64,000 bases of DNA. Source: Alistipes sp. Its GTDB lineage: Bacteria; Bacteroidota; Bacteroidia; Bacteroidales; Rikenellaceae. The notes under the pieces were generated by a model. The model saw only the letters and a list, made by a program, of their open reading frames with translations. It made no database searches and had not been told where the DNA came from. Shown here in pieces: positions 16,146 to 25,934 of the stretch. Numbering within the stretch: the stretch's first letter is position 1; every line of letters begins with the position of its first letter. Where the stretch lies: assembly GCA_017410165.1 (NCBI GenBank), contig JAFQRH010000014.1, positions 1 to 64,000 of the forward strand, written 5' to 3'. Both the position numbers and the translations under genes were made by a program.

Positions 16146-16298
16146 ATGAAACACACACAAAAACACTACCTCGCGCCAACGCTACACAGCGTTGCGTTGC
16201 ACGCCGAGCGCGGCTTCGGTGCTTCGCTCGAAATTCCGGTTGTCGATCCCGAGCAAGGTTGGACGGCTCGACCGGCAGACGAATTTATCGAAGAGTAA
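16146..16298 (+). CDS. Small protein of 50 aa, YLAPT...ERGFGAS type
   Basis: A 50-residue product with the pattern K-x-YLAPTLHSVALHAERGF, GASLEIP and an acidic C-terminus. I recognise the pattern from memory as a class of short Bacteroidales proteins with a Y-x-A/T-P-x start and E-x-GF-x-x-S centre, often beside fimbrillin-like lipoproteins. No signal peptide or membrane segment is visible. It ends 20 nt before the lipoprotein gene and is probably co-transcribed with it. Function unknown; the GF-x-x-S part could be a cleavage or recognition site, but that is speculation. Confidence 0.65.
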   Translation: MKHTQKHYLAPTLHSVALHAERGFGASLEIPVVDPEQGWTARPADEFIEE

Positions 16299-16318
16299 AA
16301 ACAACAAAAACAGATAAG

Positions 16319-17695
16319 ATGAAAAAACTTCTACTTTTCGTGCTTGCGGCGACCGTGTTCGCTGCTTGCTCAACCGACACGACGCAAGACCTTGCGCCGG
16401 AAATCCCCGATACACTGACCGTGTCGTTTGACGAAGAAACGCGCGTACAGCTCGATGCCGAGTGCAAGACAGTTTGGAATGCCGACGACCTTGTGTCGGT
16501 ATTCTACCGCTCGGACGCTAACGATTGTTGGCGATTTATGGGAGAGACGGGCGACCGTACGGGTCTGCTTGTGAGTAAAACCTCAAACGAACCGACCATA
16601 TCGACCAATGAGGTGGTTGCTGTATATCCTTACAATGCTGGTTATTGTATTGATGCGTCGGATAAGACGCTCTCCGTTCGCATCCCCGCTACGCAACGAT
16701 ACGAGAATGGCTCTTACGGCATTGGTGCAAATATTATGGTTTCGGCCGGTACTGGTAGAGATATTTCGCTCAAAAGTGTTTGCGGATGGATTAAGTTGCA
16801 GCTTACCGGCTCGGGCAAAGTGACGAAAGTTACACTCCGAGGTAATGACGACGAGCAGATTGCGGGTTTGGCAACGGTTAACTATGCGGATTACTCGCTC
16901 TCGCTGATTGCCGACGGATTGGGCAATGCTGCGGCAGATGGCGAGGTTGGCGGTACACTTGTAAACGATAGGGACTATGTGCGCGAAATCACGCTCGACT
17001 GTGGCGAAGGTGTTGCGCTTAATGCCGACACTCCGACTGCATTCTATTTTGTGCTTGCGCCACAAACTTTCGAGAAAGGCATTACTATTACCGCAATGTG
17101 CGATGATGGTACGCGCATGACAAAATCAACCTCGAATTCGATTACCATCGAGCGTAACCATATTGTGCCTATGGAGACAATAGAATATGAAAGCACTTAC
17201 TCCGTTGGTGATTTATACAACGAAAATGGCGTTAAGGGCATCGTTTTTCTGGTTGAAGAAAACGGTAAGCACGGAAAAATCGTCTCAATGAAGGAAAGCT
17301 ATGGATATTACGGATATGATTCTTATGTGAGAAGTTGTAAAAACCTCGACAATGGATTACTTAATAAAGAAGCATTGTATGAAGCCGGTGCAATATACTC
17401 TTCATCGTATCTAATGCCTCCGCAAAGCAGTGTTTGGTATATTCCGGCAATAAAAGAGTTGGAATCATTGGTGCAAGTGGTTAATGTGGTTAATAGTTCC
17501 GTCGTTGCAAATGGCGGTACTCCATTTACATTCTCCGACTATGGAGATGAAGCATTCTATACATCATCGACAAATAGTAATATGGTGAGTTGGGATTCAA
17601 CTTGTATGTATGGCAAAGATTTAGCACATCCGAATGCTAATGCTATATATGCAACGTCTGGAAAAGTCCGTTGTAGGACAATTACAACATTTTAA
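16319..17695 (+). CDS. Fimbrillin-like lipoprotein with a FISUMP/DUF1566-like C-terminal domain
   Basis: A surface lipoprotein of 458 aa. The signal peptide MKKLLLFVLAATVFAAC has its lipobox Cys at 17. Residues about 30-285 resemble fimbrillin/Mfa-type beta domains (VSVFYRSD, VAVYPYN, RIPATQRY, FYFVLAPQTF). The C-terminal domain begins near SVGDLYNENGVKGIVF and shows WYIPAIKELESL, as in DUF1566/FISUMP modules. The DNA for this last domain (from about 17170) is clearly more AT-rich than the first part, suggesting a module joined by recombination. Ligand or pilus role unknown. Confidence 0.8.
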   Translation: MKKLLLFVLAATVFAACSTDTTQDLAPEIPDTLTVSFDEETRVQLDAECKTVWNADDLVSVFYRSDANDCWRFMGETGDRTGLLVSKTSNEPTISTNEVVAVYPYNAGYCIDASDKTLSVRIPATQRYENGSYGIGANIMVSAGTGRDISLKSVCGWIKLQLTGSGKVTKVTLRGNDDEQIAGLATVNYADYSLSLIADGLGNAAADGEVGGTLVNDRDYVREITLDCGEGVALNADTPTAFYFVLAPQTFEKGITITAMCDDGTRMTKSTSNSITIERNHIVPMETIEYESTYSVGDLYNENGVKGIVFLVEENGKHGKIVSMKESYGYYGYDSYVRSCKNLDNGLLNKEALYEAGAIYSSSYLMPPQSSVWYIPAIKELESLVQVVNVVNSSVVANGGTPFTFSDYGDEAFYTSSTNSNMVSWDSTCMYGKDLAHPNANAIYATSGKVRCRTITTF

Positions 17696-20229: not shown

Positions 20230-20253
20230 GGGTTAGATAAACAAATTTCAACA

Positions 20254-20292
20254 AAAGGTTGCCTGAATATTACATCAGGCAACCTTTTTTTA
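20254..20292 (+). terminator. htpG terminator
   Basis: AAAGGTTGCCTGA (20254-20266) pairs perfectly with TCAGGCAACCTTT (20275-20287), with an 8-nt loop and T-run. Confidence 0.9.
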
Positions 20293-20330
20293 TTATCTTT
20301 GCAGATGTCAAGCAATTGACATATATATTT

Positions 20331-20361
20331 TTTGATGAAAGTGTATTAGCTTTTATCCTTG
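20331..20361 (+). promoter_or_regulatory. Promoter-like sequence of structured element A
   Basis: TTTG (20331-20334), 19 nt, TATCCTTG (20354-20361), one mismatch to TAnnTTTG. The spacer contains TTAGCTTT, also present in the same place before element B (25398-25428, minus). The -7 box overlaps the first bases of the element A closing stem. Another -7-like TATCTTTG lies at 20294-20301. Confidence 0.5.
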
Positions 20362-20515
20362 ACACGAAATCTGGAAAATTTCATTACCACAAGGAGAGCA
20401 ACACACTCGTCACTCCGTATTGATTCTTCAATAGGGGTTTACCCCATTCTTGTAGATAGATACGAGTGTGGGGTATTGTTTATTTGTGCTAAAGGCATTC
20501 CAGAGCCTCGTGTCA
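20360..20515 (+). ncRNA. Structured element A, 6S-like architecture
   Basis: TGACACGA (20360-20367) pairs with TCGTGTCA (20508-20515), and TCTGG (20370-20374) with CCAGA (20500-20504). A large open bubble follows (about 27 and 29 nt). CACACTCGT (20402-20410) then pairs with ACGAGTGTG (20462-20470). The apical part holds two small hairpins, TATTGA/TCAATA and GGGG/CCCC. A closing stem, big central bubble and apical stem recall 6S RNA. It shares a layout and flanking sequence with element B. Alternatives are a 5' UTR element of the sulfatase gene 72 nt downstream, or a DNA-level site. No sequence-level match to a known family was made. Confidence 0.45.
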
Positions 20516-20587
20516 GATAAACTAATCAACTCCACACTTTCTATTTATTATTAAAGGCCAGTTGGAGTTGTGGGCTCTGCTATTAGT

Positions 20588-22357
20588 ATGCAAACCAAAA
20601 CCTCTTTATTGAGCCAAGGCAAACAGTTCATTTTATTAATCATTATTTTCACTTTAATTGATGTTGCTGGCCCTATTATATTCAATATAGAACAAGGTGG
20701 TTCTATAAAACATATATTTAGCATATTATGCTTCTCTACTTTTTTTGCAAGTATAATAATTAGCATTATCGCATTGTTTGGAAAATATTGCCATACTATA
20801 TTTGCGATACTTTCAACCGTATACACATTATTTTCGTATGCAAATCTATTATACCATAGATCGTTCAATATGTATTTCCCCATTAGGATGATTTTTGAGT
20901 TTCAACAACTTAATGGTCTATGGAATAGTATTTTTGCTTTAATCAGATGGTATGATTTCATTTATATATGCCTATGCATACTTATATTTGTATACATTCA
21001 CTACAGTCGCTCAAATTTCAATTACAAGAACCATATTCCAATCTGTTTATTATGTGTAATTGCAACTTATACTCCCGTTTGGTTCATAACCAACCGGGTA
21101 TTACATTGGGATAGTATACAAACCTGCAAAAAAGAGTTCTCTTATACATGTCGCAACAACCCTGTAACATGTTATATCGGATTTGGTCTTTTCCCAATCA
21201 TTGCATACCAATTACATAACGCTATGTCGCAAACTATTTCTCTAACTGAGTTTGAAAACACAGAAATAGACCAAATAATTAAGAAAAATCGCCAATTAGT
21301 ATGTGACAGCTCTGACAAAAGTCAAAAAAGGTTGAATATTGTTATTATACTAATGGAATCTCTCAATACTGCATGTATATCACTAGATATAATGCCAACG
21401 TTATACAAATTAAGCCAAAATAATACCACATTATTTTGCCCCAATATTAATCAACTAACACAAGCAGCAGCATCTATAGGAGGGCAATTTGTTGTAACAA
21501 CAGGTTTAAGCGGCTTAAGGCAATCTGTGTTTGTAACAGACTACCCACACAACAAATACCCTTCAATAGTAAAAGAGTTATCAGTAATAGATAATAATAT
21601 ATACTCATTCACTATCGTCAGCACACATCGTCACTTTTGGAGACAAAGCACTGTATGCGAATCAATTGGAATGATTGATTTATTTGACCAGAATAAAGAT
21701 ATGAAACCTACATCTCAAAATGTTAATGCATTGGGGTGGGTTGATGATAAAATCATTTTTGAGGTAGCAGCGAATAAAATACCTTTAACACAACGCTCTT
21801 TTTGCGCATTACTAGTTCCTAGTAATATGCATGTACCATATACATTCGACTCAAATATTAAGTGTGATATATCATTTCCCAACATCGAAGATGATATCCT
21901 GCGCGAATATATGCGTCGTGCGCGATATGCAGACGAGCAACTCACCTATTTTATTCAGGCGTTGAAAGATAAGGGGCTCTATGATGACACACTGATTGTT
22001 GTAACTTCCGACCATCAAGTACCCGAGGCCTATTGCAGCGACGCAATGAAAGAGTCGCTTTCGCCATACATCCCTGCCATTTTTATCAATACGGGAGCCG
22101 ATTGGACGGAGCAGAACGAGCGCAATAAGGATGTCGTATTCTGCCACAGTCAGGTCTATCCGACAATGTTGCAACTTATGGGTTTGCGACCGGAGAAGTA
22201 TGCCGGATTATTCCCGCCGATGACCAATATCGAAGCGACGCAGGAGTACGACTTCGCAAATTGCGCATACGAGACGACTACCGATGAACGCATCAAGCAG
22301 ATATACGACATCGAGGAGAAAATCATCCGCAGCAGTTATTTCGGTGTGATGGAGTAG
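20588..22357 (+). CDS. LtaS/EptA-like membrane sulfatase-fold transferase, mosaic gene
   Basis: An integral membrane protein of 589 aa. About five membrane helices (residues about 10-190) precede an extracytoplasmic alkaline-phosphatase-superfamily domain with NIVIILMESLN (metal-site start), a TQAAASIGGQ/TTG nucleophile-region candidate and TSDHQVPEAY (metal ligands). Such enzymes add phosphoglycerol or phosphoethanolamine to cell-surface glycans. The DNA is markedly AT-rich to about 21890 and then switches to the local GC-rich style for the last third, with the frame intact, implying recombination inside the gene. The ATG at 20588 was chosen; GTG at 20570 is the alternative. The exact substrate is unknown. 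Confidence 0.75.
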   Translation: MQTKTSLLSQGKQFILLIIIFTLIDVAGPIIFNIEQGGSIKHIFSILCFSTFFASIIISIIALFGKYCHTIFAILSTVYTLFSYANLLYHRSFNMYFPIRMIFEFQQLNGLWNSIFALIRWYDFIYICLCILIFVYIHYSRSNFNYKNHIPICLLCVIATYTPVWFITNRVLHWDSIQTCKKEFSYTCRNNPVTCYIGFGLFPIIAYQLHNAMSQTISLTEFENTEIDQIIKKNRQLVCDSSDKSQKRLNIVIILMESLNTACISLDIMPTLYKLSQNNTTLFCPNINQLTQAAASIGGQFVVTTGLSGLRQSVFVTDYPHNKYPSIVKELSVIDNNIYSFTIVSTHRHFWRQSTVCESIGMIDLFDQNKDMKPTSQNVNALGWVDDKIIFEVAANKIPLTQRSFCALLVPSNMHVPYTFDSNIKCDISFPNIEDDILREYMRRARYADEQLTYFIQALKDKGLYDDTLIVVTSDHQVPEAYCSDAMKESLSPYIPAIFINTGADWTEQNERNKDVVFCHSQVYPTMLQLMGLRPEKYAGLFPPMTNIEATQEYDFANCAYETTTDERIKQIYDIEEKIIRSSYFGVME

Positions 22358-22361
22358 CCAC

Positions 22362-22385
22362 TTTGGACGTAATTTGCTATATTTG
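22362..22385 (+). promoter_or_regulatory. Promoter with TTTG-N12-TATATTTG
   Basis: TTTG (22362-22365), exactly 12 nt, TATATTTG (22378-22385), 22 nt before the acyltransferase ATG at 22408. There is no TTTG at the canonical 19-21 spacing. Confidence 0.45.
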
Positions 22386-22407
22386 CATCAACCAAACAAC
22401 CAGAACT

Positions 22408-23511
22408 ATGCAGCAAAACCAACCTCGTATCGTTTTTCTCGACTATCTGCGCGTGACGGCGTGCTTTATGGTCATTCTCGTTCACGCCTGCGAGCCATTC
22501 TATCTGGGTGGCAAAGGAACGTATATCGCCAATGCGACCGACGCCTTGTGGGTGACACTTATCGACTCGGCTCTGCGTTGTGCCGTGCCGCTGTTTGTCC
22601 TCACGAGCAGTTATCTGCTCTTTCCGCTACGTGTGCCGACCGGCGAATTTTTCCGTCGTCGTGCAGTGCGCGTGATTGTTCCGCTGGCTGTTTGGGCTCT
22701 GCTCTATGCCGTTGTTCCGATGTGGGGTAGCGGTGGCGAGATTGATGCCGCAGGCAACCTCCGCCAACTGCTGCTCAACTTCCCTAACCCTGCGGGCCAC
22801 CTCTGGTTTGGATATATGATTATCGGCGTATATATCGCAATGCCGCTCTTCTCGCCGTGGGTCGAGCGCGTATCGCGTCGCGGCGAAGAGATATTTTTGG
22901 CAGCGTGGGCATTCACGACCCTCGCGCCATTCCTACGTCAGGCGGCCATCGCCATTTTCGGGCGAGCCGAGTTGTGGGGCGAGGCGAATTGGAACGAATT
23001 TGGCGCACTCTACTACATTAGCGGCTTTATCGGCTACGTCGTCCTCGGCCACTACATCCGCACATACGTCGATTGGTCGTGGTGTAAAACGCTTGCCGTC
23101 TCCGTACCAATGTTCTTGGTGGGCTACGCAATCACCGCAGCGTGGTTTTGGGCACACATTCCGAAGACGTTCCCCGTAAATGAGAGTATCGACCTCGCCG
23201 TGCTGATGGAGCAAAGTTGGCGTTTCTGCGCAACGGGTGTAGCAATGACCGCCATAGCACTGTTCCTCGTCTTCAAGAAAATTACCACAGCAGGCCATTG
23301 CTATCCACTTGTAAACCACTTATCAAAAGTGAGTTATGGTATCTACCTAATGCATATCTTTATCCTCGTTGCAGCGCACGCCGTAATAACTTCGTGGGGC
23401 ATACCAACCCCGATTGCAATCTTCGGCATCGCTATTGTTACGTTTGCAATCAGCGCGTTGCTGTCGAGCATAATTTCGCGCCTTCCGGGCGGAAAATACA
23501 TCGTAGGGTAG
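22408..23511 (+). CDS. Acyltransferase 3 family membrane protein
   Basis: A 367-residue polytopic protein with about ten hydrophobic helices. The N-terminus RIVFLDYLRVTACFMVILVHA is the acyltransferase-3 (OafA/WecH-like) signature, with the conserved R/D and H; HLWFGYMIIGVY and VSYGIYLMHIF match later family motifs. These proteins transfer acetyl or other acyl groups to sugars of surface polymers. The ATG at 22408 puts the signature at the usual position and fits the promoter just upstream. Together with the sulfatase-fold transferase before it, this suggests a small envelope-glycan modification locus (inference). Confidence 0.85.
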   Translation: MQQNQPRIVFLDYLRVTACFMVILVHACEPFYLGGKGTYIANATDALWVTLIDSALRCAVPLFVLTSSYLLFPLRVPTGEFFRRRAVRVIVPLAVWALLYAVVPMWGSGGEIDAAGNLRQLLLNFPNPAGHLWFGYMIIGVYIAMPLFSPWVERVSRRGEEIFLAAWAFTTLAPFLRQAAIAIFGRAELWGEANWNEFGALYYISGFIGYVVLGHYIRTYVDWSWCKTLAVSVPMFLVGYAITAAWFWAHIPKTFPVNESIDLAVLMEQSWRFCATGVAMTAIALFLVFKKITTAGHCYPLVNHLSKVSYGIYLMHIFILVAAHAVITSWGIPTPIAIFGIAIVTFAISALLSSIISRLPGGKYIVG

Positions 23512-23565
23512 TTGCGCTCGCGAGAAGATTTAACGGAGAGTCACAAACAAAAAACGCATAAAACT

Positions 23566-24012
23566 ATGTTGAAAATTGGAGATAAAATGCCGCACTTCGA
23601 GGTTGTAAACCAAGACGGCGCGAAGGTCACCTCGGCCGACCTTATCGGCAAAAAGACCATCATCTATTTCTATCCGAAGGACAATACCAGCGGCTGTACA
23701 GCCGAGGCGTGCAACCTGCGCGACAACTACGATGCGCTTTTGGCTCGAGGTTATAACGTGGTGGGCGTAAGCAAGGATAGCGCGAGCTCGCACCGCAAGT
23801 TTATCGACAAGCACTCGTTGCCATTCACGCTCTTGTCCGACACCTCGACCGAGATGTTGCAGGCGTTCGGCGCGTGGGGCGAGAAGAAGTTCTGCGGTAA
23901 GACCTGCGTCGGCACACTCCGCCGTACATTTATTTTCGACGAGCAGGGCACGCTGACCGAGATTATCGAGAAGGTCGATACCAAGAACCACGCAGCGCAG
24001 ATTCTCGGGTAG
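23566..24012 (+). CDS. bcp: Thioredoxin-dependent thiol peroxidase (Bcp/PrxQ)
   Basis: Reduces peroxides using thioredoxin. The 148 residues carry the peroxiredoxin active site PKDNTSGCTAEACNLRD, with peroxidatic Cys in T-x-x-C and a resolving Cys five residues later (C-x4-C), typical of PrxQ. The C-terminal half is intact to NHAAQIL. The ATG at 23566 gives the standard start MLKIGDKMPHF; the upstream in-frame extension is unlikely. trxA lies 1.6 kb away on the other strand. Confidence 0.95.
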   Translation: MLKIGDKMPHFEVVNQDGAKVTSADLIGKKTIIYFYPKDNTSGCTAEACNLRDNYDALLARGYNVVGVSKDSASSHRKFIDKHSLPFTLLSDTSTEMLQAFGAWGEKKFCGKTCVGTLRRTFIFDEQGTLTEIIEKVDTKNHAAQILG

Positions 24013-24070
24013 AAATCGCAATCGGGCTGTCGCAAAGATAGGGTATCGCCCTACCCATATATAATAATAA

Positions 24071-24104
24071 CGGCGTATGCAGAGCAATTCTGCATACGCC
24101 GTTT
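24071..24104. terminator. Bidirectional terminator between convergent genes
   Basis: CGGCGTATGCAG (24071-24082) and CTGCATACGCCG (24090-24101) form a perfect 12-bp stem between bcp (plus) and the secreted-protein gene (minus). A/T-rich DNA lies on both sides. Confidence 0.8.
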
Positions 24105-24124
24105 GACTGAAACACTTCAAAGTA

Positions 24125-25192
24125 TTACAAATCTCTAACTAATCGCACATAAGCAAGTTGAGACCACGATGGTGTAAATTCCGTATATTCATCAATAAGA
24201 AGTTTCATAGCGTCACCTTCCATCAAAGTAGCAACGCGCCAACTTCCGTTTGGTGACGATGTATCCACCGGGCGACTCCATTCTATCTTAACTACGCCCT
24301 CTTGTACTAAATAATAAGCAGATACCTCCATAGTCATAGCACCAGCGTGAAAACGAGACGGATAAGTTGTAAGATTCAAGGGTAAAGAATGATATATAGC
24401 ATCATCATCATTCACCACATGAACAAAAGCACAGTTCGTGGCAACAAGCCAAGCAGTTATATTCTTTGAGTCACTCAACATTTGAAGAAATTCTTGTTTT
24501 GTTGGCAATCTCCACCCTGCCGGAATCTGACTTTTTTCAAACTGACTTAAAGTCATCTTCACACCAAGCTCTACGGTTGGCCCATCAACACTATCTTTGG
24601 GGATATTATCTCTACCATTGAAACGCCCATAGAAAACACCCTGTGCATAAACCTCGGATTTATTAGAAGGATCTATTAAGCCATTACACGCACTCCATAA
24701 TAGATTATTGAACCGATACGCACAATTTGACTTTATAAGTTCTTCTGTACTAACAGAATTTGCCCCTGTTGAAACTAACCTCAGCTGACCGTTTGCATGG
24801 CAACTCGCCATATATATATCATCGCCCAATCCTATTTCATCTGCAAAGGACTCCATCAATTTCAACTCCTCCGCAGTCGGCAAACGCCAATTATTCTTTC
24901 CATACAAACTTTGTTTATTGATATTGCTGATAATGCTATTCGGATGATTGTCGTAAAATCCCAAATCTCTCGGGAATACTGTCAAATAATCAAGCAATAC
25001 TACCGGAGCAGAAAGCGCTTTCCTAACACGAGGTTTTTCGACATATACTGTTCTATATTTTGTTATATATACAGGTTTCTCAATCACTGGTAAATTCAAA
25101 TTTACACTTTGTTGATTCTGATTAATAACTTGTGCATTTCCATTCCACAGAAATAATGGCAGCAAGATGTTTAACAATGTAAATCTCTTCAT
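24125..25192 (-). CDS. Secreted protein with two WRLPT (DUF1566/FISUMP-like) repeats
   Basis: 355 residues with an N-terminal signal peptide (MKRFTLLNILLPLFLWNGNAQ). Two repeats carry the DUF1566/FISUMP signature: NNWRLPTAEELKLM near residue 100 and AGWRLPTKQEFLQML near 225, each followed by beta-rich sequence. It ends TPSWSQLAYVRLVRDL, like the R-x-VR end of such modules. A Pro/Lys/Tyr-rich linker follows the signal. The gene is AT-rich compared with its neighbours and lies downstream of structured element B. Role unknown; surface binding is plausible. Confidence 0.7.
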   Translation of the reverse strand: MKRFTLLNILLPLFLWNGNAQVINQNQQSVNLNLPVIEKPVYITKYRTVYVEKPRVRKALSAPVVLLDYLTVFPRDLGFYDNHPNSIISNINKQSLYGKNNWRLPTAEELKLMESFADEIGLGDDIYMASCHANGQLRLVSTGANSVSTEELIKSNCAYRFNNLLWSACNGLIDPSNKSEVYAQGVFYGRFNGRDNIPKDSVDGPTVELGVKMTLSQFEKSQIPAGWRLPTKQEFLQMLSDSKNITAWLVATNCAFVHVVNDDDAIYHSLPLNLTTYPSRFHAGAMTMEVSAYYLVQEGVVKIEWSRPVDTSSPNGSWRVATLMEGDAMKLLIDEYTEFTPSWSQLAYVRLVRDL

Positions 25193-25282
25193 TTTCGATT
25201 CTAAAATTTTAAGTTCATACTATTGGTCCGTAAAATTTATCAATACACGCACAAAAAAAGCGCGGACAAAACTCATTTTATC

Positions 25283-25398
25283 AGTTCATGAGGTCTTCGA
25301 CTACCTTTCCACCTAATAATAGAGTAAAGCCCACGCCATAAAGCGTGAGCGTCATTGCCTTACTCTTGGTGGAACAGAAAGTGTCGAAGTTTCATGAA
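25283..25398 (-). ncRNA. Structured element B, related to element A
   Basis: Read on the minus strand, GTTCATGA (25398-25391) pairs with TCATGAAC (25290-25283), CTTCGAC (25388-25382) with GTCGAAG (25300-25294), then a smaller bubble (10 and 7 nt), CCACC/GGTGG, AGAGTAA/TTACTCT and a CACGC/GCGTG tip. It is about 116 nt. The arms have the same layout as element A with different, mutually compensating bases. Both start at a promoter-like sequence with TTAGCTTTTAT and end CTCRTG...TGATAAA or CAGATAAA. It lies 91 nt before the secreted-protein gene on the same strand. Confidence 0.45.
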
Positions 25399-25428
25399 CC
25401 AGAATAAAAGCTAAAAACGCTTTTTCAA
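25398..25428 (-). promoter_or_regulatory. Promoter-like sequence of element B
   Basis: On the minus strand TTTG (25428-25425), 19 nt, TATTCTGG (25405-25398). The spacer ends TTAGCTTT as in element A. The -7 box is degenerate and overlaps the first base of the closing stem. Confidence 0.4.
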
Positions 25429-25551
25429 AATATGTCTAAAATGTGCGTATCAAACTATACGCGATGTTTCATAGGCAAATATGTTTATATATTCTTCACA
25501 AAATTAAAAAACTTTTTGCAAACGAGCAACACCCGTGCGAGGGTAGCACCA

Positions 25552-25592
25552 CAAAAAAATCATCCCCTGCCCCGCAAAGGGCAAGGGATAAT
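25552..25592 (-). terminator. trxA terminator
   Basis: On the minus strand ATCCCTTGCCC and GGGCAGGGGAT (plus 25562-25572 and 25579-25589) form an 11-bp stem with one mismatch, followed by a T-run (plus 25554-25559 is all A). Confidence 0.8.
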
Positions 25593-25619
25593 CAGCAAAG
25601 CGAAAAGCAGTGCAACCGA

Positions 25620-25934
25620 CTACAAAAGTGCGTCGATTTTTGCCTTCAAATCGTTCTTCGAGATTGCGCCGACGTGCTTATCGACAACCGCGCCACCTTT
25701 GATAAATACGATGGTCGGGATGTTGCGAACGCGATACGCAGCAACGATATCGTCATTGCTATCAACGTCGCACTTGCCAATATTAACCTTGTCGGCATAC
25801 TCCTCTGCCAACTCCTCGACAATCGGAGCAACCATACGGCACGGACCGCACCACTCTGCCCAGAAGTCGATAACCAACGGCTTGCTGTCACCCAACAGCT
25901 GCTCGTAATTCTCATTTGTAATTTTTAATGCCAT
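25620..25934 (-). CDS. trxA: Thioredoxin
   Basis: A small redox protein of 104 aa with the canonical WCGPC active site (residues about 28-32), the buried Asp in FWAEWC, and the cis-Pro segment NIPTIVFIKGG. It reduces disulfides in ribonucleotide reductase, peroxiredoxins and others. It lies 24 nt after dnaE and is read in the same direction, so it is probably the last gene of a dnaE-trxA unit ending at the terminator near 25560-25590. Confidence 0.96.
   Translation of the reverse strand: MALKITNENYEQLLGDSKPLVIDFWAEWCGPCRMVAPIVEELAEEYADKVNIGKCDVDSNDDIVAAYRVRNIPTIVFIKGGAVVDKHVGAISKNDLKAKIDALL

Follow-up and report, generated by a model that had tools for sequence, protein, structure and literature searches.

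Elements A and B, found in a 64,000-nucleotide stretch of an Alistipes sp. assembly (contig JAFQRH010000014.1; referred to here as the window), belong to an RNA family that is unannotated, real and under selection. Members of the family lie between a promoter and a start codon on the same strand, which is the layout of an mRNA leader. We consider it probable that both elements act as 5' mRNA leaders and represent an undescribed RNA family of the Bacteroidia, and that the leader most likely switches expression of the gene behind it. The data are best read as a cis-acting leader exerting control by attenuation, by start-site control or by both.

The family was delineated using a covariance model (R1) trained on 38 A-like sequences, from which B was excluded. 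This model scores A itself at 201.8 bits and matches B at 64.9 bits (E = 1.3e-15, E-values from R1 being rough), and these two are its only matches in the window. In the genome as a whole it finds 12 copies including A, compared to 9 in Bacteroides xylanisolvens XB1A, 5 in B. heparinolyticus and about 9, some of them weak, in B. acidifaciens; counts in genomes of gut Alistipes and Bacteroides come to ~5–12 copies each, and other families of Bacteroidia have fewer. An even sample of the class Bacteroidia, our own genome counted, gave R1 matches in 26 of 197 genomes (23 genera), and in a phylum-wide sample every match fell within this class. A blastn search of 61 genomes with A found repeated copies in most genomes of the same genus, those at different genes being ~75–86% alike. 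Across a further 181 kb of loci R1 gave a single strong match, to a diverged copy that follows htpG in a different species (L208), alongside two weak matches at locus edges which may be partial copies. Among the loci read, a profile built from 41 copies recovered 66 good ones, and a pattern scan of named genomes returned at least 118 stretches. Among the pattern-scan matches listed, all but that from a Burkholderiaceae MAG (L123) fit the family profile; these matches come mainly from Alistipes, Rikenella and other Rikenellaceae, further from Tidjanibacter, Cryptobacteroides, Limisoma and Phocaeicola, and include isolates of B. acidifaciens, B. xylanisolvens and B. heparinolyticus. Across Bacteroidia the distribution is thus mostly Alistipes and Rikenellaceae, plus Bacteroides isolates and scattered copies in other families. 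Judged by these matches, the DNA most likely comes from an Alistipes-like member of Rikenellaceae.

No Rfam 15 family matched either element at gathering score in the window, and a search around each of them at E ≤ 10 gave no credible match. Nor did 20 distant loci yield an Rfam match to the family RNA; their lone match was the unrelated rteR sRNA (RF04181), known from CTnDOT-type conjugative elements. A distant family copy at L288 (35–117), which leads a RibD-like gene, lies ~1.4 kb or less from rteR. Bacteroidales-1 (RF01693), Flavo-1 (RF01705) and GUCCY-hairpin are, like the present family, candidate structured RNAs of Bacteroidetes. However, neither Rfam model matches A or B, which includes the comparison with RF01693 suggested in the first-pass annotation of this DNA; for GUCCY-hairpin (PMC2864571) no Rfam accession is given, and the comparison covered the two Rfam models. 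No description of the RNA family was found in the literature searched, to which the supplementary alignments of PMC2864571 and PMC8040213 did not belong.

The structured domain of A runs from the 5' strand of P1 to the end of the tail (20337–20541, plus strand). P1 pairs GAAAGTGT (20337–20344) with ACACTTTC (20534–20541). It encloses P2, formed by TGACACGA (20360–20367) and TCGTGTCA (20508–20515), which had been recognised correctly as a closing stem, and P3, formed by TCTGGAA (20370–20376) and TTCCAGA (20498–20504), of which the previously reported second stem TCTGG/CCAGA is a part. P4 is formed by CACAA (20388–20392) and TTGTG (20484–20488). In a crossing pseudoknot, TATCCTTG (20354–20361) pairs with CAAGGA (20390–20395). 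RNAalifold places an apical stem between CACTCCGTATTG (20411–20422) and ATACGAGTG in the 20460–20468 region. The tail, CAACTCCACACTTTC (20527–20541), is followed by a T-rich run and has three overlapping partners, with each of which it covaries: the 5' strand of P1, the apical 3' strand GTGTGGGG (20466–20473), and the downstream loop TGGAGTTG (20563–20570), which is complementary to CAACTCCA within the tail. Element B (25256–25424, minus strand; P1 AAAAGCGT/GCGCTTTT) shares this architecture with different paired bases, as had been proposed, and was matched by a model built without it. The structures of both elements stand, with altered limits: those of B are corrected as above, and A is longer than the 20331–20520 first assigned to it, with a 5' hairpin in front of the domain and a 3' pseudoknot hairpin extending towards 20588.

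The earlier proposal that A and B are related structures under selection is strongly supported, and the search for further homologues with conserved pairing, on which that proposal had been staked, found many. Compared to shuffled sequence, element A (z = -7.0) and element B (z = -7.7) both fold with unusual stability. In 46 A-type sequences, helices P1–P4 together with the inner stem of the first-pass annotation are 96.8% paired, the nested helices include 19 pairs with both sides changed (up to 25 of the 46 sequences have double changes at a single P2 pair), and the nested-structure covariation score is 0.260 compared to 0.092 after shuffling (0/500 shuffles). P1 is invariant within A-type copies and covaries across the class. 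For the structure including the crossing pseudoknot, 37 compact and mostly distant members score 0.364 compared to 0.163 (0/500 shuffles). The helix between tail and apical strand is 88.3% paired, with six double-change pairs and a score reached in 0/500. Whole-segment permutations gave 0/5000 for P1, the apical hairpin, the crossing pseudoknot (in the wider family) and the tail with the downstream loop, and 1/5000 for the tail with the apical strand, while two control segment pairs showed no pairing signal. Within the A-type set the tail and downstream loop score 750 in their own pairings, against 677 for the best permutation (0/10000). The main helix of the crossing pseudoknot is imperfect, with 55.7% of cells paired in a MAFFT alignment. 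G-U pairs outnumber A-C pairs, most clearly in the tail–apical helix (42 vs 4), which favours function as RNA of the strand on which the element is read.

These alignments do not bear out the central bubble of 27 and 29 nt that had been described in A. It is not open, since it contains the covarying helix P4, part of a pseudoknot and further pairs, and RNAalifold places pairs throughout it in A-type sequences. The 9-bp inner stem proposed beyond it, CACACTCGT/ACGAGTGTG, shows no double changes in the seven pairs counted and has one pair broken in 12 of 46 cells; RNAalifold instead gives CACYY-GTATTG/CAATAC-RRGTG, in which one pair shows 14 double changes from U-A to C-G.

Upstream of the domain, the motif TAnnTTTG is present within 70 nt of P1 in 136/136 copies, compared to ~10 expected from the shuffle mean, and in nearly all of them at a distance of 36–55 nt. 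This is the -7 consensus of the Bacteroidetes primary sigma factor (PMC7366714). The box in A is TATCTTTG (20294–20301, plus strand), whereas the TTTG-N19-TATCCTTG previously taken for the promoter sits within the RNA, a stretch where TAnnTTTG occurs in just 1/136 copies. In B a probable -7 element, TAATTTTG, can be read directly from the sequence (25499–25506, minus strand), with a longer spacing to P1 than in A. The -7 box is followed by a 5' hairpin (mean MFE -8.6 compared to -4.5 shuffled, family-wide), which in A is TGTCAA-GCAA-TTGACA (20306–20321, plus strand) and probably marks the transcript start. Behind the tail, TTTT occurs within 10 nt in 79% of copies compared to 4.6% nearby. Beyond the T-run there is a hairpin with a loop that matches the tail by base pairing, and then a start codon ~50 nt past the tail. 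The start codon lies 40–79 nt past the tail in 108/136 copies, and an ORF starts 15–135 nt away in 154/165. In A the ATG is 46 nt after the tail and opens a gene for a membrane sulfatase-type protein (PF00884; 20588–22357, plus strand); in B it is 63 nt after the tail and opens a gene for a secreted protein (24125–25192, minus strand) whose matches to Lcl_C and Fib_succ_major are weak and below cut-off. Copies with no clear gene at the expected place are the first of two at L111 and the Flavobacteria-type copies L281, L351 and L353. It is this succession of promoter, RNA, tail, T-run, hairpin and start codon that identifies the family as an mRNA leader. A covarying structure placed from promoter to start codon is what would be looked for in a cis-regulatory leader, as are overlapping pairings linked to a T-run or a start site, such as those of the tail, which may alternate in vivo.

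The genes led by the RNA are very diverse. Among 123 led proteins no common Pfam function was found, the largest Pfam family (BACON) accounting for six; on a crude test, secretion or lipid anchoring seems likely for about 60%. As the downstream genes share no function they suggest no ligand, and their diversity argues for a general signal over a pathway metabolite. That the link between gene and RNA is kept is shown by one lipoprotein family, which has the RNA directly upstream in 9/13 homologues within the genus, a count that includes the query and one member cut by a contig end. Besides the query, the homologues with the RNA mostly share 34–53% protein identity, and the RNA subtypes differ among those that keep it. 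A small ORF (~45–50 codons, motif like YLAPE..E.GF) directly before a lipoprotein gene, as at 16151–17695 in the window, is a recurrent arrangement seen also at L012, L058, L063, L119 and L266, with several of the pairs led by the RNA. Flavobacteria-type copies are single, have no gene at the usual distance, and are often flanked by a divergent HTH gene on one side and a gene for a SusC-like receptor on the other; a SusC-like receptor gene is downstream of the RNA at L281, L289, L351, L352 and L353, and a small divergent HTH gene is on the far side in four of these five loci. We rejected an association with defence islands, given the very few PADLOC matches among led proteins, and one with retrons or reverse transcriptases, as no such gene was found beside the copies read.

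It has been suggested that A comprises a promoter and a 6S-like RNA that binds RNA polymerase. The resemblance lies in a long irregular hairpin of about 150–200 nt, which appears in single-sequence folds. B. thetaiotaomicron has a 6S RNA, and we searched for the models RF00013 and 6S-Flavo (RF01685), finding none at gathering score in the window, none at A or B at E ≤ 10 and none in the whole genome at E ≤ 1, although Rfam models may miss 6S. A 6S RNA would be expected to be free-standing with one or few copies, in contrast to 12 copies placed as leaders, and to have an open bubble resembling a melted promoter, where the family has a paired and pseudoknotted centre with a covarying P4 and conserved neighbouring pairs. 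It also has conserved pairing with a hairpin beyond its own T-run. We therefore rejected this identity and give the 6S reading almost no credence.

An unlikely alternative, of which more can be said, is a free-standing trans-acting sRNA with its own promoter and a terminator at the T-run, the downstream gene being incidental. The promoter box, the T-run and the few copies without a nearby gene are all compatible with this, and multi-copy paralogous sRNA families are known in Bacteroides: the trans-acting FopS/GibS RNAs (~65–70 nt, with an R1 seed) have, like the present family, multiple copies and a σABfr promoter (PMC11697453), and differ in size and position from leaders of ~150–205 nt joined to genes. 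Against it, the start codon is at a nearly fixed distance, the loop beyond the T-run has conserved pairing with the tail, and a lipoprotein gene family retains the RNA, all of which tie the RNA to the mRNA. Still harder to credit is that RNA and gene form a mobile cassette, the structure serving mainly as a signal for recombination or spread. The led genes are accessory and patchily distributed, the sulfatase gene behind A being absent from nearly all relatives; the interval between htpG and trxA differs between species; and copies at different genes remain as alike as noted above. However, neither terminal repeats nor a target duplication could be found, the arrangement from promoter to start codon is conserved, and the excess of G-U over A-C pairs points to function at the RNA level. 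An empty-site comparison at htpG and trxA involved relatives ~71–79% identical, too divergent to give boundaries. In the window this interval, flanked by htpG and trxA in convergent orientation, spans 20240–25620 and is a variable site: in other species of the genus the accessory genes next to htpG or trxA are different ones, some accompanied by the RNA and some not (L204, L208, L178). A phage or plasmid origin was rejected, as the RNA family has no plasmid match, its profile fits just one of three viral contigs (L198), and the lone record labelled as phage looks bacterial. This is a 5.2-kb ‘UNVERIFIED Bacteriophage’ entry (L199, MT838511.1) with the RNA at 1844–2058 alongside endonuclease-like and ABC-transporter-like genes.

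Processive antitermination, through a leader that modifies RNA polymerase, would be compatible with a large pseudoknotted leader adjoining the promoter and with a terminator-like T-run inside it. EAR and put antitermination leaders are likewise structured, lie near promoters and act on their own transcript. We think such a function very improbable for the present family, which has no Rfam match to these leaders and usually leads single genes that are short and diverse.

We thus favour a cis-acting leader, and the overlap among the three pairings of the tail makes it most likely that this leader switches between a terminator-like helix before the T-run and an expressed gene. Transcription would start from the primary-sigma promoter, with the small hairpin at the opening of the transcript, which would then fold into the long helix P1–P4, the apical hairpin and the crossing pseudoknot, followed by the tail and T-run. 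A second hairpin, with its loop complementary to the tail, would form after the T-run, ahead of the start codon. In one state the tail would be paired upstream, with P1 or the apical strand, before the T-run, leading to a transcription stop or a translation block; in the other, pairing of the tail with another of its partners would let the gene be expressed. We infer that these pairings are alternatives in vivo which change expression, the state being set by a ligand, a protein or a physical condition. The overlapping complementarity may also belong in part to one compact fold rather than to alternatives. The c-di-GMP riboswitches are multi-copy riboswitches of a global signal, and are similar in combining a structured leader, several copies before unrelated genes, alternative helices and a T-run; the present family differs in having no Rfam match, in its larger size and in its three overlapping partners for one tail.

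More tentatively, the family could be a new Bacteroidia-wide class of switch, one RNA device that would respond to a common signal from the cell or the host and, by moving one tail among three partners, coordinate a large, fast-changing set of accessory surface and secreted genes, with new genes recruited as they gain the leader. If the RNA is a switch, major gut bacteria would have a hidden regulon made up of accessory surface genes. The family is testable now because culturable Bacteroides isolates carry the RNA, namely B. xylanisolvens XB1A, B. acidifaciens DSM 15896 and B. heparinolyticus DSM 23917. One of the XB1A copies lies at ~600070–600264 of NC_021017.1. B. acidifaciens DSM 15896 (L111, reverse strand, ~2278–2890) has a tandem pair of differing family members; both have a promoter box, and a gene is in place for the second member only.
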